Positions 16,587-58,505 of a stretch of DNA of 64,000 nucleotides are shown here, in pieces. Below the pieces are notes generated by a model, which was given only the letters and a program-made list of their open reading frames with translations, ran no database searches and was not told where the DNA came from. Position 1 is the stretch's first letter; each line of letters opens with the position of its first letter. The DNA comes from an uncultured Dehalococcoidia bacterium. GTDB taxonomy: Bacteria; Chloroflexota; Dehalococcoidia; Lucifugimonadales; GCA-2712585. Position numbers and translations under genes: made by a program. The stretch is taken from the NCBI GenBank assembly GCA_958295715.1, contig OY282371.1, positions 310,001-374,000 of the forward strand. The letters are read 5' to 3'.

Positions 16587-17340
16587 CCCCGCGCCCCCGC
16601 CTCCTGCCCGCCGTCTGCCCGCCTCCTGCCCGCCTGCCGCCTGCCCCGCGCCCCCCTGTCCGTCATTCCCGCGCAGGCGGGAATCCATCCCCTTCTTAAT
16701 GAGTTCTGTTAGGTGTGCTCTCGCCGTTCCCGCGTCCCCACCATGGCCTGCCCCGTGCAACCCACCGTCATCCCGCGCCCCCTTTCCGTCATTCCCGCGT
16801 AGGCGGGAATCCAGGAAGGCCGCATAGCACGACCAGCGCCCCGAACCACGGCGTCCCCGCCGCCGTCATCCCCGTGCCCCCTTTCTCGTCATTCCCGCGC
16901 AGGCGGGAATCCAGGAAGGCCACATAGCGCGACCAGCGCCCCGAACCCCGGCGGGGAGCCGGGGTCTGCCCCACGCACCCCACCGTCATCCCGCCCCCCG
17001 CTATCCGTCATCCTCGCGCCCCCACTTCTCGTCATTCCCGCGCAGGCGGGAATCCAGGAAGCCTACATGGCAGGACCAGCGTCCCGAACTCCAAGGCCAC
17101 CCGTAGGGGCTTCTCTCCCCAACCGCCGGGAAAGTGTAGAGGGGCATGGTCGCCGGGATTCGCACCGTTCCTTGGCGTAAGAGAATCGGGGAGGGGATGG
17201 ATTCCCGCCTACGCGGGAATGACGGATAGGAGGGAGCGGGAATGGCGAATGGGTGGCGAGGCGGGCCGAGGCGCGGGAGCTCCGGCGCGGGAATGACGGA
17301 AGGGAGGCGACCAACGCCCTTCCAAACAAACGGGCCGCGC
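16587..17340. repeat. Intergenic repeat block with three roughly 60-bp direct copies
   Basis: This 750-base non-coding stretch contains dRS3-like palindromes at 16665-16684, 16791-16810, 16891-16910, 17034-17053 and 17201-17220. Three of them (16791, 16891, 17034) begin a longer direct repeat, the palindrome followed by TCCAGGAAGGCCACATAGCG-like sequence and GACCAGCGCCCCGAAC, at spacings of 100 and 143 bases. Apart from the tig promoter at the right end no gene is seen. Confidence 0.85.
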
Positions 17341-33747: not shown

Positions 33748-33802
33748 CGTGGTTGCGCTATTTCGGCGCTGCATATAATAAAGTAAGCACGGAGGTGGAG
33801 GC

Positions 33803-35725
33803 GTGAAGCCCTTGCAACGGTTCAGGAGATGGCGGATATACGGGATACTGTCCGCCGTGGTTGTGCTAACCCTGGTGATAGTTGCCTGTGGCGGAGATGA
33901 CGCCACGGCCACCCCCACCCCAAGGCCGGCGGTGACGGCCATGCCGTCGACTCCGAGGGCAACGGCCATGCCGTCAACGCCCCGTCCCACGGCCATGGCG
34001 ACACCGAGGGCAACGGCGATGCCGTCAACGCCCCGTCCCACGGCCATGGCCACGGCGACTCCACGTCCCACGGCCATGCCGACGGCGATGCCGTCAACGC
34101 CCCGGCCGACGGCCATGCCCCGTCCCACCCCGACCCCCACACCCGCGATGGTGATGAGGGAGCCTGTGCAGCCGCGCCTACGGGTATCGATGTCCCCGCC
34201 CGGGGTGCAGGCGACGACCCATTGGAAGCTGGCGGGCTGGCAGAGCGCCCAAGGCCCCCTCTACTCCATGTACGACACCCTTCTTCACATCGACCGGTAC
34301 ACTGAAGAGTGGAAGCCTTACCTGGCCGAAAGCTGGACGGTGAGTCCCGACGCCAAGGAATGGACCTTCCGGCTGAAGCAGGGCATCCCCTTCTACCGGA
34401 ACAAGCAGCCCACCAACTACACGGTGACTGTGGCCGACGTCATCCACTCCTTTGAGATCAACTTCTTCCCGCCCTACCAGGCAGGAATCCCCGGGCTGGC
34501 GGTGAATTCCACCACGGACCCGCGCCACTTCGACGTTAAGAGCGACCACGAGTTTGTGTGGAAGCTGGACAAGCCGTCTCTGACCTGGGGCTACTGGAGC
34601 ACCGACGACCGCCGGGGCGTGGCCAGCAAGGCCTACTGGGACGACGTTGGCGAGGAGGCCTACATAGAAGACCCCATCGGCACCGGGCCTTTTACCTACG
34701 TTGACTTCGCCATTAACCAGGGGTTGTTGGTGGAGCGGGTGGAGAACCACTACCGCAAGACGCCGGAGTTCCACGAGCTTCAATTCTTCTACGTCCCTGA
34801 GGAGGCCACCCGGTCGGCCATGCTCTACACCAACGAGGCCGACATATCCGCCATATCCAGGGCCCTCCACGAGCAGGCGACCTCCAGGGGATATCAGGTG
34901 GTGAACAGCACCACCCCCAGCCTCTACACCTTCATGTTCATAGGCGGGATGTTCGACGCCGCCCGGCCCGACGGCTACGGCAAGGTCGTTCCCGACTTTG
35001 TGGTGGACGAGGCCAGCCCCATGCGTATAAAGGAGGTCAGGGAGGCCCTGAATCTGGCCATTAACCGGAACGAACTGAACAGCGTGTTCTTCAATGACCA
35101 GGCCGTTCCCACCACCCGGTGGGCCTTCCCGCCCACTTGGAGCCATAGCGACCCCACGTGGACGCCCTACCCCTACGACCCCGACCGGGCCAGGCAGTTG
35201 ATATCGGACGCCGGATACCCCAACGGCTTCGAGATGGAGGTCTACGTGCCCAGCGCCATTACGGGGCTGCCGGAGGCCGGCGAGATGTCTGAGGTTATCG
35301 CCCAGTACTTTGAGCAGATAGGCCTCGACGTGGTCCTGAGGCCCATCAACACGGCCCAGATGTCCTCGATTCCGAGGAACCGGGAGTACTCCCGAGGCGT
35401 AATGCAGACCCGGTTCGGGCCGCCGGGCCGGGGCGACCTCGTCCGCCACTTCAAGAACAACGTCAACTGGCGCCAGGAGTGGCAGCAGCACCAGGAGATC
35501 TACGACTTCGTTGACCGGCTCGAGGCCGCCAGCGACTGGCCGACCCTTGACGCCATTGAGGTTGAGGCGGCCAACTGGGCGGCAGACAACCACCTGATAA
35601 TCCCCCTGTTTTGGGTAGTGGGACAGGTGGTGGTCAACCCCGACGTGGTGGCCAGCTACGAGTCCCGCCACCTGCACATGGGACCCTCCCGCCATCACGA
35701 GTACACGGTGCCCGTCTACAGGTAG
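33803..35725 (+). CDS. ABC transporter substrate-binding lipoprotein, family 5 (copy 1)
   Basis: A 640-residue protein starting with GTG after GGAGGTGGAGGC. A lipoprotein signal (hydrophobic 13-30, then V-I-V-A-C-G-G) is followed by about 75 residues of low-complexity linker built from repeats such as T-A-M-P-S-T-P-R-P. Then comes a full SBP_bac_5 domain (E-E-W-K-P-Y-L-A-E-S-W-T near 170, Y-P-Y-D-P-D-R-A-R-Q-L near 450). Such proteins bind peptides, opines, sugars or other small solutes for ABC import. No permease or ATPase gene is near. It is an almost identical sister of the next gene, differing at scattered residues only. Confidence 0.92.
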   Translation: MKPLQRFRRWRIYGILSAVVVLTLVIVACGGDDATATPTPRPAVTAMPSTPRATAMPSTPRPTAMATPRATAMPSTPRPTAMATATPRPTAMPTAMPSTPRPTAMPRPTPTPTPAMVMREPVQPRLRVSMSPPGVQATTHWKLAGWQSAQGPLYSMYDTLLHIDRYTEEWKPYLAESWTVSPDAKEWTFRLKQGIPFYRNKQPTNYTVTVADVIHSFEINFFPPYQAGIPGLAVNSTTDPRHFDVKSDHEFVWKLDKPSLTWGYWSTDDRRGVASKAYWDDVGEEAYIEDPIGTGPFTYVDFAINQGLLVERVENHYRKTPEFHELQFFYVPEEATRSAMLYTNEADISAISRALHEQATSRGYQVVNSTTPSLYTFMFIGGMFDAARPDGYGKVVPDFVVDEASPMRIKEVREALNLAINRNELNSVFFNDQAVPTTRWAFPPTWSHSDPTWTPYPYDPDRARQLISDAGYPNGFEMEVYVPSAITGLPEAGEMSEVIAQYFEQIGLDVVLRPINTAQMSSIPRNREYSRGVMQTRFGPPGRGDLVRHFKNNVNWRQEWQQHQEIYDFVDRLEAASDWPTLDAIEVEAANWAADNHLIIPLFWVVGQVVVNPDVVASYESRHLHMGPSRHHEYTVPVYR

Positions 35726-35904: not shown

Positions 35905-35955
35905 GCGTAGTTGTGCTAATTCAGCGCTAAATTTTGTAAACACGGAGGTGGAGGC

Positions 35956-37878
35956 GTGAAGCGCTTGCAACGGTTCAGAAAGTGGCGGATATACGGCTTA
36001 CTGTCCGCCGTGATGGTGCTGACTCTGGTGATAGTCGCCTGTGGCGGAGATGACGCCACGGCCACTCCCACCCCAAGGCCGGCGGTGACGGCCATGCCGT
36101 CGACTCCGAGGGCCACGGCCATGCCGTCGACCCCACGGCCAACGGCCATGGCGACACCGAGGGCAACGGCCATGCCGTCAACCCCACGGCCCACGGCCAT
36201 GGCGACGGCGACTCCCAGGCCAACGGCCATGCCGACGGCGATGCCGTCAACCCCACGGCCGACGGCCACGCCCCGTCCCACCCCGACCCCCACGCCCGCG
36301 ATGGTGATGAGGGAGCCCGTGCAGCCGCGTTTGAGGGTATCGATGTCCCCGCCCGGCGTGCAGGCGACGACCCATTGGAAGCTGGCGGGCTGGCAGAGCG
36401 CCCAAGGCCCCCTCTACACGATTTACGACACGCTAATCCACTTGGACAGGTACACCGAGGAGTACACGCCCTACCTGGCCAACAGTTGGGAAATTAGCTC
36501 CAACGCCAGGGAATGGACCTTCACGCTGAAGGAGAACATCCCCTTCTACCGGAACAAGCAGCCGACCAACTACACCATGACGGTGGCTGACGTCATCCAC
36601 TCCTTTGAGATCAACTTCTTCCCGCCCTACCAGGCAGGAATCCCGGGGCTGGCCGCCCAGTCCACCACGGACCCGCGCCACTTCGACGTGAAGAATGACT
36701 ACGAGTTTGTGTGGAAGCTGGACAAGCCGGACCTCACCTGGGGCTACTGGATGAGCGACGACCGCCGGGGCGTGGCCAGCAAGGCCTACTGGGACGACGT
36801 TGGCGAGGAGGCCTACATAGACGACCCCATAGGAAACGGCCCCTTCACCTACGTTGACTTCGCCATTAACCAGGGGTTGTTGGTGGAGCGGGTGGAGAAC
36901 CACTACCGCAAGACGCCGGAGTTCCACGAGCTCCAGTTCTTCTACGTGCCTGAAGAGGCCACCCGGTCGGCCATGCTCTACACCAACGAGGCCGACATCG
37001 TGAGCATAGCCAGGTCCCTCCACAGCCAGGCGACGGCTAGGGGATACCGGATTGTGAACAGCACCACCCCAAGCTCCTACACCTTCATGTTCATAGGCGG
37101 GATGTACGACGCCGCCCGGCCTGACGGTTACAGCAAGATAGTTCCCGACTTCGTGGTGGACGAGGAAAGCCCGATGCGGATAAAGGAGGTCAGGGAGGCC
37201 CTGAACCTGGCCATTGACCGGAACGAGATTAACGAGGTGTTCTTCGAGAGCCAGGCCGTTCCCACCACCCACTGGGCCTTCCCGCCCTGGTGGCAGCACA
37301 CCGACCCCTCCTGGTCGGCCTACCCCTACGACCCCGACCGGGCCAGGGAGTTGCTGACAAACGCCGGATACCCCAACGGCTTCGCGATGGAGGTCTACGT
37401 GCCGCCTCCGATTACCGGTCTGCCGGAGATAGGCGAGATATCCGAGGTTATCGCCCAGTACTTCGAGCAGGTAGGCTTGGACGTGACGCTGAGGCCCATC
37501 AACTCGGCCCAGCAGAGTTCCATTCCAAGGAACCGGGAGTACTCGCGAGGCGTAATGCAGACCCGGTTCGGACCTCCGGGCCGCGGCCAGTTGGTTCGCC
37601 ACTTCAAGAACAACGTCAACTGGCGCCAGGAGTGGCAGCAGCACCAGGAGATCTACGACTTCGTTGACCGGCTTGAGGCCGCCAGCGACTGGCCGACCCT
37701 TGACACCATTGAGGTAGAAGCGGCCAACTGGGCGCGCGACAACCACCTGATGGTTCCTCTGTTCTGGATTGTGGGCCAGGTGGTGGTCAACCCGGACGTG
37801 GTGGCCAGCTACGAGTCCCGCCACTTGCACATGGGACCCTCCCGCCATCACGAGTACACGGTGCCCGTCTACAAATAG
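35956..37878 (+). CDS. ABC transporter substrate-binding lipoprotein, family 5 (copy 2)
   Basis: A 640-residue protein that aligns end to end with the previous one: same lipobox (V-I-V-A-C-G-G), same Pro/Thr linker made of T-A-M-P-S-T-P-R-P units, same SBP_bac_5 domain. Differences cluster in the domain (for example I-Y-D-T-L-I-H-L-D-R for M-Y-D-T-L-L-H-I-D-R, and P-P-W-W-Q-H-T-D for P-T-W-S-H-S-D), which might shift ligand choice. The offset between the two promoters is 2158 bases. The duplication includes promoter, leader and terminator, so each copy is its own transcription unit. Confidence 0.92.
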   Translation: MKRLQRFRKWRIYGLLSAVMVLTLVIVACGGDDATATPTPRPAVTAMPSTPRATAMPSTPRPTAMATPRATAMPSTPRPTAMATATPRPTAMPTAMPSTPRPTATPRPTPTPTPAMVMREPVQPRLRVSMSPPGVQATTHWKLAGWQSAQGPLYTIYDTLIHLDRYTEEYTPYLANSWEISSNAREWTFTLKENIPFYRNKQPTNYTMTVADVIHSFEINFFPPYQAGIPGLAAQSTTDPRHFDVKNDYEFVWKLDKPDLTWGYWMSDDRRGVASKAYWDDVGEEAYIDDPIGNGPFTYVDFAINQGLLVERVENHYRKTPEFHELQFFYVPEEATRSAMLYTNEADIVSIARSLHSQATARGYRIVNSTTPSSYTFMFIGGMYDAARPDGYSKIVPDFVVDEESPMRIKEVREALNLAIDRNEINEVFFESQAVPTTHWAFPPWWQHTDPSWSAYPYDPDRARELLTNAGYPNGFAMEVYVPPPITGLPEIGEISEVIAQYFEQVGLDVTLRPINSAQQSSIPRNREYSRGVMQTRFGPPGRGQLVRHFKNNVNWRQEWQQHQEIYDFVDRLEAASDWPTLDTIEVEAANWARDNHLMVPLFWIVGQVVVNPDVVASYESRHLHMGPSRHHEYTVPVYK

Positions 37879-47534: not shown

Positions 47535-48306
47535 GGTGGCGCCTCCGCGTTGGTCTGATATTCCGTGGGGATGAGGCATTATAACCCGATGGGGTTTCCG
47601 ATTGCCAGTGTGTGTTTACATAATCGGCGCGTCGCACGCCGCCCTGTATTCCCGCGTCCCCCATTCGGCATTCCCGTTCCCCTGACTCGTCATTCTCGCG
47701 TAGGCGGGAAGGGCGCGTGCGCCCACTTAGTTTTGAAGAGTGTTGGTTCGGCGGCGGGGCAAGAAGGATGGATTCCCGCCACCCCCCCATTCGTCATTCC
47801 CGCGCAGGCGGGAAGGGCGCGTGCGCCCACTTAGTTTTGAAGAGTGTTGGTACGGCGGCGGGGGGGCAAGAAGGATGGATTCCTGCCTCCCCTTTCCGTC
47901 ATTCCCGCGTAGGCGGGAATCCATCTTTCCCGATTCGCTTCTAACGCCATCGTCCTCCTTTGACAGACCTCCGGGTTGGGGTGGTAGGCCAGGCCGGGGG
48001 CGTGAGAGCGATACATTGGCCGTTTTGCTATGGGGCCTTCCTGGATTCCCGCCTACGCGGGAATGACGGGAGGAGAGGGGCGGGAAGGGCGCGTACGCCC
48101 ACTTAAGTTTTGAAGAGCGTTGGTTCTGCGGCGCGAGGTTTCTGCCTACGCGGGAATGACGGATAAGAGGGCGGGAATGACGGGGAGGGGGCGACGGGAG
48201 TGACGGATAAGAGGGTGGGAATTACTGTGAGAGGCTATGGGAATGACATCAATTGGGGGTATGACGGCAGTGGCGCGGGAATGATGAGGCAAGAGGCGCG
48301 AAAAAG
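47535..48306. repeat. Intergenic block with composite repeats and dRS3-like palindromes
   Basis: This 770-base gap holds dRS3-like palindromes at 47692-47710, 47796-47814, 47901-47920 and 48045-48064. The two first are followed by the motif GGGCGCGTGCGCCCACTTAG and by TTTTGAAGAGTGTTGG; a third copy of that second motif lies at about 48085-48131. The stretch 47787-48010 matches 4899-5103 over nearly its full length. No gene is supported. Confidence 0.85.
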
Positions 48307-52827: not shown

Positions 52828-53967
52828 TCAGGAGGAAGCCATGGGGTGGCCGGCCACCAGCCGTTCCCCGTAAATCTTCACGGAGTTGTCCCACAGTATC
52901 TTGCGCTTGGACTCGTCGGAGAGGGGTTGCTCCATCATGTTGGCTAGGGGTTCCGATGTGGCCGGCGCGTCGGGGTGGGGGTAGTCGGTGTTGAATACGA
53001 TGTTGTCGTCGCCGATATAGTCGACAACGTACTTAATGGAAGGTTCGTCGGCGTCGGCGGCCACGGCGCACTGTCTGAGGAAGTACTCCTGTGGGGAGAG
53101 GTTGAGGGGATGCTGGTCGAAGAATACGGACTGACGGCCCTCGCAGTACTTTTCCAGGCGGTTGAGCCAGAAGGGGACCCAGCCGGAGTTGGCCTCGAGG
53201 ATGAGGAGCTTGAGGGTGGGGAACCGGTCTAGGATGCCGCTATACATGAAGTGGCCAAGGTTCATCATGTTTTCAAAGGGGAAGCCGATGGTCTCGCTGA
53301 GGGCGATGAACGCGCCATCCAAGGGGTCGTAACGGGCGGAGGCCAGGGGGAGTCCGCTGGCGCTGCCGGTCCCGTGGACGGCCAAGGGAACTTCCAACTC
53401 CTGGGCGGCCTGCCACACGGGGTTGTAGTCGGGGTGGTGCCACATCTTGTCGGGGATGGCCGAGGGCAGGAAGACCGACACGGCGCCGAGGTGGTCGACG
53501 GCGCGGCGGATTTCGGCGGTCATCTCCGCAGGGTCTTGGCCGGTGACCACGGCGGCGAACTTGACCCGCTCCGGGGCGGTGCTGCAAAAGTCGCGGGCCC
53601 AGTTGTTGTAGGCGCGGCAGAGGGCGGCGGCCAGGTCCGGTTCCCCCTGGGCGGGGGCGCCGGAGCCGTTGGTGGGCAGGCACACCTGAATGTCCCACCC
53701 CTCGGCCTCCATGTCCTTAAGGCGGCTCTCCATGCTCCAGCCGTCGCGGAAGGCGTGGCCGAACTTGGCGTCCATCTGGGAGAAAAGGGCCTTGGAGCGG
53801 AGGGCGTTCATGGGTTCCTGCCCCTCGTACTGGAGGACGGACTTGGCGTGAACCGCGGTGACGCGGGGGCGCCGGTCGCGGAATCCGGCCTCGACGTAGG
53901 TGTCCCAAATGTCGCCGGGCTCGTAGAAGTGGGCGTCGGCGTCAATGACCCTGAATCCGTTTCGCAT
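52828..53967 (-). CDS. TIM-barrel amidohydrolase (PF04909)
   Basis: A 379-residue protein. The N terminus V-I-D-A-D-A-H-F-Y-E-P gives D-x-H ligands, P-L-A-V-H-G-T-G the middle His, and V-F-N-T-D-Y-P-H-P-D the final Asp. GGGAGG lies seven bases before the ATG. It is distinct from the other three family members here. It lies 43 bases downstream of the next amidohydrolase and is read in the same direction, so the two are probably one operon. Confidence 0.85.
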   Translation of the reverse strand: MRNGFRVIDADAHFYEPGDIWDTYVEAGFRDRRPRVTAVHAKSVLQYEGQEPMNALRSKALFSQMDAKFGHAFRDGWSMESRLKDMEAEGWDIQVCLPTNGSGAPAQGEPDLAAALCRAYNNWARDFCSTAPERVKFAAVVTGQDPAEMTAEIRRAVDHLGAVSVFLPSAIPDKMWHHPDYNPVWQAAQELEVPLAVHGTGSASGLPLASARYDPLDGAFIALSETIGFPFENMMNLGHFMYSGILDRFPTLKLLILEANSGWVPFWLNRLEKYCEGRQSVFFDQHPLNLSPQEYFLRQCAVAADADEPSIKYVVDYIGDDNIVFNTDYPHPDAPATSEPLANMMEQPLSDESKRKILWDNSVKIYGERLVAGHPMASS

Positions 53968-54010
53968 GGCAGCGCCTCCCGGTGTGCGGCTGACTCGTTG
54001 GGTTGGGGCG

Positions 54011-55138
54011 TTAGGCCAAGTCCATGTTGTACAGCTTGATGACGTTGTCGCGGGTGACTTTGCGCTTCACCTCTTCGGAGACGCCCGCGAAGTTCTCGTC
54101 AACTATCTTGTGGGAGTTGGGGAAGGTGGACTGGGCGTGGGGGTAGTCGCTGGCCCAGGCGTAGTTGTCTGCGCCGTAGTAGTCGGAGAGTTGCAGGCCG
54201 ATGGGGTCGTCCATGTAGGTGACGTAAATCTGGCGCTTGGCGTACTCGCTGGGGCGCATCTTCAACTCGGTGGGGTGGCTGTACGCGGCCTTCTCGTGGA
54301 AGTGGTCGGCCCGGTATAGGAAGTGGGGAACCCATCCTATGTCGTTTTCCGCCGACACGATTTTGAGGTTGGGGTGTCGCTCCAAGGCCCCTGAGAACAT
54401 GATCTCGGCGAAGGAGCGCTGGACCTCGTGGATGATGCTGATGGCGCGGAGGTAGTGGTTCTTTTGGAACTTGCCCACGTTGCGGCTCTCCTCGCCGTGG
54501 CCGGTGAGGATGTGCAGGCTGATGGGCATGTCTAGGTCGGCGGCCGCGGCCCAGAAGGGTTCGAACACGGGGTCGGCGTAGCTTACGTCGTCGGGCGGGG
54601 AGGCCATGATGAGGGCGCCGCGGAGTCCGAGGTCGCGGCACCGGCGCAACTCCTTCACGCCCTCCGAAACGTCCAGCAGGGAGATGAGGCCGAGGCCTAT
54701 CATGTGCTTGGGGTTGTAGCCGCAGTATTCGGATATCCAGGTGTTGAAGGCCCGAAATAAGGCCTGCTGGTAGGGCGCGTCGGTGAGGCGGAAGAGGCGG
54801 AAGCCCAGGGTGGTGTAGAGTATCTCGGCCTCAACGCCGTCGACCTCCAACTCCTTGACGCGCTCCTCGGGGATGTAGGCGCCGAGGGGGCACTGCTCCT
54901 CCACGGAGACCTCCTCCAGCATCTTCTTGAGCTCTTCCGGCGAGGCCCCGGCGGAGAAGCCGCCGCCCACCTTCTCCGGCTCCTGGCCGGGGGTTACGAA
55001 GTAGTCGCCCTTCTTGCCGTCGGGGTTGGTGACTATGCGGGGCGCGCGGTCCCTGAAGGCGGGGTCGACGTAGTCCACCCACATCTCCCGCGGCTCAAAG
55101 ACGTGGGAATCTGCCGATATCAGCTTGTAGTTTGGCAT
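54011..55138 (-). CDS. TIM-barrel amidohydrolase (PF04909), sister of the 31.6-kb gene
   Basis: A 375-residue protein, the same length as the protein at 31631 and with the same start (Y/N-L-I-S-A-D-S-H-V-x-E-P-R-x-M-W) and end motifs (W-A-S-D-Y-P-H-A). The middle His lies in P-I-S-L-H-I-L-T-G-H-G-E. It should carry out a metal-dependent hydrolysis or decarboxylation on an organic acid that is not known. Its promoter and first codons are duplicated at 55978-56079, 866 bases upstream, which brackets a foreign-looking two-gene cassette. Confidence 0.86.
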   Translation of the reverse strand: MPNYKLISADSHVFEPREMWVDYVDPAFRDRAPRIVTNPDGKKGDYFVTPGQEPEKVGGGFSAGASPEELKKMLEEVSVEEQCPLGAYIPEERVKELEVDGVEAEILYTTLGFRLFRLTDAPYQQALFRAFNTWISEYCGYNPKHMIGLGLISLLDVSEGVKELRRCRDLGLRGALIMASPPDDVSYADPVFEPFWAAAADLDMPISLHILTGHGEESRNVGKFQKNHYLRAISIIHEVQRSFAEIMFSGALERHPNLKIVSAENDIGWVPHFLYRADHFHEKAAYSHPTELKMRPSEYAKRQIYVTYMDDPIGLQLSDYYGADNYAWASDYPHAQSTFPNSHKIVDENFAGVSEEVKRKVTRDNVIKLYNMDLA

Positions 55139-55212
55139 TTTGCGTTCCTGTTCTGGTGGATGTTGGTACGATGGTAGGCGTGAGGGGGCCTGTTGTCAAT
55201 GGCCGTGGGAGG
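55112..55212. repeat. Direct repeat, copy 1: amidohydrolase start and promoter
   Basis: About 100 bases that begin inside the amidohydrolase coding sequence and include its start codon, ribosome site and upstream region. They match 55978-56079 with only a few substitutions and small indels (for example the runs GCATTTTGCGTTCCTGTTCT and GTTGTCAATGGCCGTGGG are identical in both copies). Confidence 0.9.
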
Positions 55213-55254
55213 AGGGAGGGGAGCGACCAGCAAGGGTTTCTTCGCGATTTAGAG

Positions 55255-55680
55255 CTAATCGGGGGGTATGGCCGCTCGCGTGTTTAAGGCTAGTTTGCGC
55301 CGGAACTCTACGAGAAATTTGTCTGGACCTTGTACCGTTTCAACCTGTGCGTGTGCGTATCTCCAAGATCTCCACGGTTCTTTAACATACTCGTCATCAG
55401 GGCGCCACTCAACAGTGACCTTAAAGGGAATTTTTTCGGTTTGTGCGGCGCAGTCTGAGAGATTAAGGTAATCTCCCGCCGTATGGTGTGCTTGACCTGA
55501 ACCTTCTAGTTGGTTGATTCTAAGATCGTTAAGAGAAATCCCATTGGCGCCGAGACGGTCTTTATGCCATACGGAGAGGCGAGGTTGTTTGAAGGCCCCG
55601 GGCCTTGGTCTGCTGTCACGATAGCTCCAGTCCTGCTTGCGTACGAACCGGCATAAGATATCGTTATTAGGGACGGGCAT
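55255..55680 (-). CDS. Hypothetical protein, second gene of an uncharacterised two-gene cassette
   Basis: A 141-residue protein without signal peptide or membrane segment. Notable parts are D-R/S-R-P-R-P-G-A-F-K-Q-P near 24-34, L-S-V-W-H-K-D-R-L near 36, G-S-G-Q-A-H-H-T-A-G-D-Y near 62, and V-E-W-R-P-D-D-E-Y-V-x-E-P-W near 92. The pair H-H and the many Trp/His positions look functional. No family was recognised. It is AT-richer than its neighbours and follows the 104-residue gene after 9 bases. A toxin-antitoxin-like or defence role is only a possibility. Confidence 0.55.
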   Translation of the reverse strand: MPVPNNDILCRFVRKQDWSYRDSRPRPGAFKQPRLSVWHKDRLGANGISLNDLRINQLEGSGQAHHTAGDYLNLSDCAAQTEKIPFKVTVEWRPDDEYVKEPWRSWRYAHAQVETVQGPDKFLVEFRRKLALNTRAAIPPD

Positions 55681-55689
55681 GAAGTTGGG

Positions 55690-56004
55690 TCACAGCATGT
55701 TAACCAAAATTGTCTCTGTCGTGTGTGGAAGTCGCTTTATAAGTGTTGACTGGCTATCGTAAATGCTTGCGTCGAGAGAGCCGTCAGGTTCTAATTCAGC
55801 GAGAACCAGTTGTCCGTTATGCAGCCTCAGGTCGAAAGAAAGGGCGCCATCCACGTCTACGGTAATCTCGGGTTGTATGGTGCGTTCAAAGGCGGCCTCG
55901 GTGATTCGAGTGGCGATGTGAACGACATTGCTGTTGGGCTGATGAAAACCTTGAACGCCGGATGCAAACTCTTCAATTGCCGATATCAGCTTGTAGCTTC
56001 GCAT
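55690..56004 (-). CDS. Hypothetical protein, first gene of the cassette, with a borrowed start
   Basis: A 104-residue protein. Its first residues, M-R-S-Y-K-L-I-S-A, copy the start of the amidohydrolase downstream (M-P-N-Y-K-L-I-S-A); from residue 10 the sequence is unrelated. The remainder is acidic (V-D-V-D-G-A-L-S-F-D-L-R-L and L-A-E-L-E-P-D-G-S-L-D-A-S-I-Y-D), reminiscent of a small beta-rich partner protein. The start codon and ribosome site lie in the second copy of the duplicated promoter region. Family not recognised. Confidence 0.55.
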   Translation of the reverse strand: MRSYKLISAIEEFASGVQGFHQPNSNVVHIATRITEAAFERTIQPEITVDVDGALSFDLRLHNGQLVLAELEPDGSLDASIYDSQSTLIKRLPHTTETILVNML

Positions 56005-56079
56005 TTTGCGTTCCTGTTCTGGTGGATATCGGTAGATGGTAGGCGTGAGGGGGGCCTGTTGTCAATGGCCGTGGGGAGG
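55978..56079. repeat. Direct repeat, copy 2: supplies promoter and start to the cassette
   Basis: The counterpart of 55112-55212. It contains the start codon of the 104-residue gene at 56002-56004 and the same upstream bases that precede the amidohydrolase. Confidence 0.9.
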
Positions 56080-56157
56080 GGAACCCGCATTGCGGGCCGG
56101 CGCCTCAAGGCCCATGGCCGGCCGGGTTACGCGGGGATGGTGGCCGCCGGCGTCGGG

Positions 56158-57168
56158 TTAGAGGAGGGGTTCCAGTTCCAGGAGGTTGGCGTCGCTTTGG
56201 GGCCGGCGGCCCTGTTCCACCTCGCGCACGAGTTCGATTAGCCGGTCGTTCAGAGGGGTTGGGATGCCGCGTTCCCGCGCCTTTTGGACGATGGGGCCTA
56301 TGATGTAGTCAACCTCGGTGGGTCGCTTTCGCACGGCCACGTCCCTCCACGGCCCGGAGTACACCTTCACGTGTCCCTCAAAGCAGTCGGCCATGCTGTT
56401 GAAGATGGGGAGGGCGTCTTGAGGGGGCAGGCGGACCAGCTTTGGGGCGTCGAAGTTGTGCTCGTTCAGCGGCTCCAGGGTGATTCCCGCCCCCTCTGCC
56501 GCTAGGACGCCTTCGCGGAAGAGGGCCAGCAGCACGGGGCCGTTGCGGGGTTCCCGGAGCATGTCCGTGACGGTGGCGGTCCCCAGGGCGTTGCCGATGA
56601 AGAAGCAACCCCATATGATTTTGGACCAGAGGTATCCGAAGATGTTGCCGGTGATGGTGGTCGGCTCTACGTGGTTGAGGATGTCGCGGATGTCGCTGAG
56701 CCTCTCGGTGAGGGAGCCGTCAAGCTCGCCGACGCGCATGGGCCCGGGGCCGCCGTACTGGATGTGGCCCGGCTCGATGTAGTCGCCGCCCCAGTTGACC
56801 AGGCATCCGATGACGCGCTCGGGGCCGACGTAGCCCGCTATGACCTCTTCGTTGAGGCCGTTTTGCAGCGAGACTATGGTGGTTTGGGGGCCGACGTGGG
56901 GCAGGATGGCGTCCATGGAGGCCACGGTGTCTTGGGCCTTTGTGCACAGGAAGACGAGGCCCAAGGGTCCCTGAAGCCGGTCGGGCGACAGGGCCTTGGC
57001 CTTTACGGGTTGGTCGTCGTTGACGCCGCTCACCAGAAGGCCGCGGCGGTTAATCGCGTCCACGTGCTCCTGGGCCTTGTCGACAAAGGTTACGTCGTGG
57101 CCGGCGAGGGCTACCCTGGCCCCGGCGATGCCTCCAATGGCCCCGGCGCCGTAAACGGTGATGTTCAT
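56158..57168 (-). CDS. Ketopantoate reductase (ApbA/PanE) family protein
   Basis: A 336-residue protein. The N-terminal Rossmann motif is V-Y-G-A-G-A-I-G-G. L-C-T-K-A-Q-D-T and S-L-Q-N-G-L-N-E mark the NADPH/substrate cleft, and the helical C-terminal domain includes W-S-K-I-I-W-G-C and R-K-R-P-T-E-V-D-Y. It should reduce a 2-oxo acid such as ketopantoate. Since no other pantothenate gene is near and the island is catabolic, a relative acting on another oxo acid is possible. Confidence 0.88.
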   Translation of the reverse strand: MNITVYGAGAIGGIAGARVALAGHDVTFVDKAQEHVDAINRRGLLVSGVNDDQPVKAKALSPDRLQGPLGLVFLCTKAQDTVASMDAILPHVGPQTTIVSLQNGLNEEVIAGYVGPERVIGCLVNWGGDYIEPGHIQYGGPGPMRVGELDGSLTERLSDIRDILNHVEPTTITGNIFGYLWSKIIWGCFFIGNALGTATVTDMLREPRNGPVLLALFREGVLAAEGAGITLEPLNEHNFDAPKLVRLPPQDALPIFNSMADCFEGHVKVYSGPWRDVAVRKRPTEVDYIIGPIVQKARERGIPTPLNDRLIELVREVEQGRRPQSDANLLELEPLL

Positions 57169-57371
57169 GTTGGCCTCCTGCTGGCGGTGGTCTTTTGGTT
57201 GGAAGTGACGCCGGCGATTATCTGCCTGGGCGCGGGCGGCGTCAACCTCGCTGAGATTCTGGGGGATGGATTCCCGCCTGCGCGGGAATGACGGAATAAG
57301 AGGGGCGGGAATGACGAGAGGGGGGAGCGGGAAGGGCGATTGTGGAGTGACGGAGATGTCCGGGGGCAGGG

Positions 57372-58505
57372 TCAGGTGGCCTGCATGAGGATGGAGTGGA
57401 GGCGCAGGAACAGGGTGACCATCTCCTCGGCGGTGTCCATAGGGGCAAGGCGCAGTTGGGGGGTCACGTGGTCGAAGAGGCCGAACTCGGTGTAAGAAAA
57501 CTCGCCGCGGCCTTCCAGGGCGTCGCGGAGGCGGCGGGACTCGAAAACCGGCACCATCCTATCCTGCCGGTCGTGCATAATCATCACGGGCGCGGTGAGT
57601 CCGTCCAGGCGTTGGCTGGGTGATATGAGGAGCATCCTGTCCTGCAATGACTGGGGTGTCCGGCTGAAGTGGGTCAGGGTCTCTTCCGCCGGGACTCCCT
57701 GAAAGAGGTCGTAGACTGCCTTCCCCTGGCTGGACAGGTCGGCGGCGGCGATTTCCAGGGGGTGGCCGGTGGTGAAGGCGTCCCGTAGACGGCTGCCCTC
57801 CGGCTCCGGCAGTTCCCGGGTGAAGTTGGTGATTAACACGTCTCGGGAGAGTTTGGCGGGTTTCCAGGGGCGCGTCTCCCCGTCGTAGGAGGCTGTTTCC
57901 GATGAGATGGCGGCCAGGGTGTCGCGGAGGTCGTAGTAGGGGCCAAAGGCGTAGACGAAGGCCACCTGGTCGCGGATGGGTTCCTCGGCGGCGGCCATGA
58001 GGCTGAAGCTGGCCCCCACGGAGAAGCCGCCCATGCCGACGCGGGACTTGTCCACGTAGTCTTGGGCGTAGAGATGCCGGAACGCGGCCACCAGGTTGTC
58101 GACGTCCTCCGGCAGCATGTGCCCGGCGGCCATGCTGGGTGACCAGTAGATGAAGGTAACCATGTTGGACCTGGCTAGGGCGTTGCTGAGTCGGATGACC
58201 CGCGGGTCTGACGAGGCCCTCGGCGCCACGCCCGGGAACAGGAGCGCTGCGGCGTATGGCCCCTCGCCCGGGGGCCGGTACATTTCCCCCGTGGCGGGGC
58301 CGTGGGGCGTGGGGAAGGTGACGCGCTCAACTATGGGGTCGGGGGTGAACCAGTTGAGGGGGCTGACGCCCACGTTGAAGACTTGGGGGATGAACAGGGC
58401 CGTCTTCACGGCGGCCCGGCCCTCGTGGGTGACGCCTAGGAACAGGGTTAAGGCGATGAGGAGCAGGAAGAGGGCGCGGCCAGCCCTCTTAAGGCGCCGC
58501 CTCAT
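57372..58505 (-). CDS. Exported or membrane-anchored alpha/beta hydrolase
   Basis: A 377-residue protein. Residues 9-28 form a signal anchor. The catalytic set is visible: nucleophile Ser in G-F-S-V-G-A-S, Asp in M-H-D-R-Q-D-R-M-V-P, and His in F-D-H-V-T-P. It could cleave esters or peptides outside the membrane. It shares ATGA with the ResA-like gene upstream and is the last gene of the cytochrome operon, a place where its role is unexplained. Confidence 0.85.
   Translation of the reverse strand: MRRRLKRAGRALFLLLIALTLFLGVTHEGRAAVKTALFIPQVFNVGVSPLNWFTPDPIVERVTFPTPHGPATGEMYRPPGEGPYAAALLFPGVAPRASSDPRVIRLSNALARSNMVTFIYWSPSMAAGHMLPEDVDNLVAAFRHLYAQDYVDKSRVGMGGFSVGASFSLMAAAEEPIRDQVAFVYAFGPYYDLRDTLAAISSETASYDGETRPWKPAKLSRDVLITNFTRELPEPEGSRLRDAFTTGHPLEIAAADLSSQGKAVYDLFQGVPAEETLTHFSRTPQSLQDRMLLISPSQRLDGLTAPVMIMHDRQDRMVPVFESRRLRDALEGRGEFSYTEFGLFDHVTPQLRLAPMDTAEEMVTLFLRLHSILMQAT

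Follow-up and report, generated by a model that had tools for sequence, protein, structure and literature searches.

The window analysed here, a stretch of 64,000 nucleotides from the genome of an uncultured Dehalococcoidia bacterium (phylum Chloroflexota), contains a cassette of two small genes, which we call B and C, between a ketopantoate reductase-like gene and an amidohydrolase gene (Table 1). The layout consists of a 5' fragment of the downstream gene, the cassette and the intact downstream gene, with the upstream copy of the fragment fused in frame to a domain of B. An original prediction, made from the DNA letters, described a repeat of about 100 bases enclosing two small AT-richer frames of no recognised family, the first of which uses the duplicated start; each of these points held in our analysis.

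Table 1. Features of the cassette and its borders (window positions)
Feature	Position	Strand	Description
Host amidohydrolase (Amidohydro_2, PF04909)	54011..55138	-	5' end duplicated
Proximal (downstream) repeat copy	55112..55216	-	Start region of the intact amidohydrolase: putative promoter, ribosome site and codons 1-9
Promoter-like site, proximal copy	55171..55199	-	TTGACA-17-TACCAT; consensus match only
Gene C (141 aa)	55255..55680	-	Full length compared to homologues; 9 nt after the B stop
Gene B (104 aa)	55690..56004	-	Nine duplicated amidohydrolase start codons joined to what is the C-terminal domain in longer B proteins
Fusion junction	55977..55978	-	Duplicated start (MRSYKLISA) / B domain (IEEFASGVQG...)
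Distal (upstream) repeat copy	55978..56080	-	Ends after codon 9; putative promoter, ribosome site and start for gene B
Promoter-like site, distal copy	56036..56065	-	TTGACA-18-TACCAT; consensus match only
Ketopantoate reductase-like gene (ApbA/PanE), upstream host gene	56158..57168	-	Bounds the insertion gap

The two repeat copies are 92% identical and comprise a 57-nt block at 93% identity plus 26-nt and 19-nt blocks at 100%, with a spacing of 865-866. A search of the whole genome (a 2.4-Mb assembly in 2 contigs) returned exactly two full copies, at positions 365112-365260 and 365978-366080 of contig C1 (second copy 92%, E 4e-36); there is no third full copy in this genome, the next best match being 16 nt long. 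Within positions 53500-58000 of the window, the longest exact direct repeat is 27 nt, compared to 16 nt or less in 100 order-1 resamples. The repeat is unique and not a product of chance. Across the aligned core of about 103 bp, 4 substitutions and 2 single-base indels separate its copies, indicating that they are not an assembly duplicate and that the duplication event was not very recent. The outer border of the duplication sits in a CT-rich tract (TCCCCTCCC).

Each copy carries one promoter-like match, and these are the only two in positions 55000-56300, where 0.6 would be expected; they are sigma-70-like consensus matches, and a match alone is no proof of promoter function. An AGGA motif lies nine bases 5' of the ATG in each copy. 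The protein encoded by gene B begins with MRSYKLISA, compared to MPNYKLISA in the amidohydrolase, and then diverges. There is no alternative ATG, GTG or TTG ahead of codon 51, which falls inside the conserved core of the protein, so a complete B domain can be made only from the duplicated start.

The composition of the cassette is foreign to the host. Its G+C content is 51%, compared to 63% for the window, and only 3.3% of equal-length windows are as low; GC3 is 0.50-0.52, compared to 0.85-0.90 in the neighbouring genes. Neither gene has a meaningful match in Pfam, PADLOC or PHROGs. A structure model of the 104-residue B protein predicts a compact helix-helix-five-strand-helix domain (mean pLDDT 81). 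Because B alone is confidently predicted as a compact domain, the truncation point described below is near a domain border; it falls no more than a few residues from where the C-terminal domain begins. Foldseek returned no match to this model at E 0.001 or better. In a structural comparison the best Z was 7.9, with matches spread across unrelated folds (Mediator subunits, the T4 MotA C-terminal domain and two immunity proteins); these may reflect a merely common arrangement, and we therefore read no function from the fold. The model of C is poor (pLDDT 53, two sequences), and sequence searches of the PDB with the profiles of C and of gene A, introduced below, gave nothing useful.

The window also holds repeats of other kinds. 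An intergenic palindromic type (GGATTCCCGCCTGCGCGGGAATGACGG) occurs in many copies, at window positions 1918, 4869, 5140, 14577, 16629-17056, 30982, 47760-48192 and about 57265. Two 300-bp repeats with 91% identity (33783-34082 and 35936-36235, 2153 bp apart) lie in apparent tandem paralogous genes.

Comparison with homologous loci

Homologues of C are sparsely distributed. Of 147 relatives, 5 have one, and a profile search of 250 genomes from the order detected 12 that carry C; among 400 genomes drawn from across the phylum, none has the window type of C. The closest homologue, at 65% identity and with the motifs kept, is in another family of the order, in agreement with the protein-level conservation anticipated in the original prediction. 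Eleven members of the C family align over their full length and are 33-65% identical to the window C. No relatives of B or C were found on plasmids, and none of C in phages or viral contigs.

In eight genomes (G108, G116, G018, G215, G219, G221, G238 and G189), C is the last gene of a set of three in the order A-B-C. A is about 200-285 aa long and B 187-384 aa, with junctions that overlap or nearly touch. As in these genomes, C in the window is directly preceded by a B with the conserved C-terminal domain. However, the 104-residue window B aligns solely to the C-terminal end of the long B proteins, and their amino-terminal region is absent from it. Both A profiles found no gene A in the window genome. 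In G221, the amino-terminal part of B contains about three near-identical 123-bp tandem repeats (L054 6749-7136).

Gene A, together with a long B, is present in 8 of the 13 loci with a window-type C. The five loci that lack A are the window, two copies in G127, G246 and G247. B is short in all five and in none of the eight A-bearing loci (p 0.0008, a value that counts loci, of which the five A-less ones are not fully independent, two being in one genome). In the second G127 copy C is shortened to 34 aa, and in G247 B is a stub and a stop interrupts C. The B domain of the second G127 copy is an in-frame fusion behind the first 80 or so residues of a DNA methyltransferase, a part that is 64% identical to a methyltransferase of G027 over 95 residues. 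Thus, at least two genomes have a B domain, followed by C, that is joined to the start of an unrelated gene.

The cassette corresponds to the 3' portion of an A-B-C operon, comprising the C-terminal domain of B and the whole of C. Given that the window has no A and only the C-terminal domain of B, we regard the cassette as a 5'-truncated operon fragment. The proposal that the pair is a complete two-gene system does not agree with these findings. B and C are found together without A in some genomes, but most of the loci also have A.

A itself is more widespread than this set of loci. Searches recovered it from 16 of 250 genomes of the order, and a broader profile detected it in 5 of 350 genomes of the phylum; it is mostly followed by different types of B and C. 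Among 18 A loci in the order, A is followed by B and C in 17 and by B only in one; it never stands alone. The C-terminal domains of two groups of B match each other by profile (hhalign E 3e-4), whereas homology between the window type of C and the other third-gene types is not significant (hhalign E 0.034). No library that we searched (Pfam, NCBIfam, PHROGs, PADLOC) names the A, B or C proteins. These loci appear to constitute an undescribed three-gene operon family in Chloroflexota.

The insertion site in related genomes

The cassette is absent from two other genomes of the same genus, G001 (84% complete) and G002, neither of which has C, and from one same-family genome that carries the amidohydrolase. 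In G002, the ApbA gene and the amidohydrolase gene (84% identical protein) are again neighbours. The gap between them (L023 4095-4930) holds an unrelated insert with a frame for a 217-aa membrane protein and a 58-aa ORF, suggesting that the gap may be an insertion hot spot. There is no alignable copy of the duplicated promoter region in this gap, and no flanking repeat at the G002 insert. In G004, a member of the same family, the amidohydrolase gene is present but is preceded by other genes. We found no clean empty site among the relatives examined, and the ancestral gap is for that reason a reconstruction. Neither of the conditions given in the original prediction as refuting it was observed, although in G002 the gap is filled by a different two-gene insert.

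Selection on genes B and C

Between the window and G127, differences in C at codon positions 1, 2 and 3 are 31, 16 and 63%, with saturated dS, and in the B core they are 38, 20 and 66%. This pattern shows purifying selection on B and C across the history of the family, with most of the divergence predating capture. Both window genes have intact frames and family motifs, and C keeps all but a few of its family-conserved residues. From pairwise dN, the C branch leading to the window is about 0.19, compared to about 0.09 for G127, and the B branches differ little (about 0.20 and about 0.17). Relaxed selection on the window C after capture is possible.

Related operons and genomic context

The family resembles the operon of NCBIfam TIGR04255 ("sporadTIGR04255", function unknown), which also has three genes, the first of about 220-300 aa and two further ones behind it. 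The two genes that follow A in G213 are of the same types as those that follow TIGR04255 in G027 (35% and 36% identical; E 6e-14 and 1e-22, each a single comparison). The window differs from the TIGR04255 operon in having no first gene. At its curated cut-off of 30 bits, the TIGR04255 model recognises none of 15 A proteins, and a profile-profile comparison of A with TIGR04255 members is not significant (hhalign E 0.07, 21 columns). No mention of TIGR04255 was found in the literature searched. The TIGR04255 triad of G027 (L099 2685-11243) is flanked by a large methyltransferase gene of type III-like character and a restriction-helicase-like gene, all on one strand; both flanking genes were named from sequence without a family search.

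Several loci of the A-B-C family are near defence genes: Hma/DUF499 in G127, a type IIG gene in G221, Dsr1 in G247, a methyltransferase in G108 and an AAA ATPase in G189. Defence genes are beside about 5 of 20 loci, but they also occur in control regions from these genomes (1-3 of 14), and the difference is not significant (p 0.19-0.57, from approximate counts). PADLOC models match neither the window B and C nor the 15 A proteins. A resemblance to the BREX-related DUF499/DUF1156 systems (PMC12839542; PADLOC Hma) is seen in G127, where a locus A-B'-C' starts 138 bp after the gene of a DUF499-type ATPase and its methyltransferase. However, this is one locus, no such genes are beside the window cassette, and B and C have no match among the PADLOC models. 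Downstream of A-B'-C' in the same G127 region (L025 1-7611) are truncated B-C copies and PIN-gene fragments. A DUF6791-ThiF (E1-like) gene and a DUF6527 gene precede an A-B-C locus in G213 (L068).

Origin of the cassette

The best explanation for this arrangement, and one that we consider probable, is that a truncated fragment of an A-B-C operon, acquired by horizontal transfer, was captured in frame behind a duplicated host flank of about 100 bp and is expressed from the copied promoter. The fragment would have come from another lineage. It would have entered in one illegitimate step in which about 100 bp of the target were copied, with template switching in the course of break repair as the most likely mechanism. 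The outcome would be a bicistronic B-C unit on the copied amidohydrolase promoter, with the amidohydrolase still served by its own copy. Since a copied promoter and start codon precede B and C, the fragment is probably still expressible. The original idea of an insertion with a long duplication is largely right, in that foreign DNA lies next to a duplicated flank.

A similar geometry can be seen in G215, where a cassette with a PIN domain lies between C and an FAD-dependent gene and is flanked by an exact 36-bp repeat of early codons of the FAD-dependent gene (L051 5379-5414 and 6172-6207). In G219 (L053), C lies immediately next to the FAD gene, representing the site without the PIN insert. 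The window duplication is longer than that of G215 and differs from it in taking in a promoter with a start codon and in producing a fusion gene. The flanking repeats of a G127 B-C copy were rejected as a parallel case, as they look like a local rearrangement of the end of a PIN gene.

Other histories would leave some of the same traces. A tandem copy of the amidohydrolase could have arisen before the cassette came to replace most of it, given that the start and end of the upstream copy resemble a gene fragment and that amidohydrolase paralogues are abundant (29-48 matches in several relatives). We think this improbable: no amidohydrolase sequence is left past codon 9, so a single insertion with duplication is simpler, and G215 repeats the geometry for another cassette with just 36 bp duplicated. 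It is far less probable still that a transposon-like element made the long target duplication with its own enzyme. Direct repeats are present at the window cassette and at one G127 B-C copy (146 bp, 92%), but the latter are pieces of a PIN-domain gene that are also present at other places in that locus, other family copies have no matching flanking repeats, and the 866 bp of the window cassette contain only B and C, leaving no room for a transposase or integrase.

What was captured is a separate question. The pair could be a non-functional remnant of a lost operon that is by chance still open, which we regard as quite possible, if somewhat short of an even chance. A and the amino-terminal part of B are missing, related loci decay (as in G247 and the second G127 copy), C has evolved faster on the window branch, and the asymmetry between A and B-C also fits a simple 5' truncation. 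Against this, both frames are intact despite the substitutions and indels accumulated in the flanking repeats, C retains nearly all of its family-conserved residues, second codon positions have changed far less than third (although most of that divergence predates capture), and B is a complete predicted domain. We think it unlikely that short B and C form a self-sufficient module to which A is an optional addition. Short B and C do occur without A, and with differing flanks, in the window genome, G127 and G246 at least, and a Rhodococcus plasmid carries an adjacent B-like/third-gene-like pair with no A in front. However, the Rhodococcus link consists of a 78-residue match at 30.9% (E 3e-3) in which the B type matched is a different one, A and long B accompany C in the majority of window-type loci, and the B starts of G127 and the window are unrelated borrowed sequence, which looks like truncation.

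Possible functions

We speculate that A is the active partner of the operon, that the amino-terminal part of B together with B-C binds or controls A, and that B-C on its own is a neutralising or regulatory half that has been retained in the absence of A. This suggestion, which we offer tentatively, is based on the observations that B-C occurs without A, that A never occurs without B, and that the amino-terminal part of B is lost with A. Such an asymmetry would be expected of a neutralising partner, as with orphan antitoxins and immunity genes that persist after toxin loss. However, A is not known to be toxic, and plain truncation would give the same asymmetry. We consider the neutralising or regulatory role and the non-functional remnant described above to be about as likely as each other. 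A broader and rather doubtful proposal is that A-B-C is a modular conflict system resembling toxin-antitoxin systems, in which the first gene is A or TIGR04255, the types of B and C can be exchanged and B-C forms the neutralising core; in Chloroflexota, lone B-C pairs placed behind captured host promoters would then be fixed because they protect against A-B-C operons that enter the cell.

The cassette illustrates a route by which transferred DNA may become expressible: in one event the cargo is trimmed near a domain border, the duplicated flank supplies promoter, ribosome site and start, and the host gene remains intact. The parallel with TIGR04255 could provide an entry point for testing the role of that uncharacterised family.
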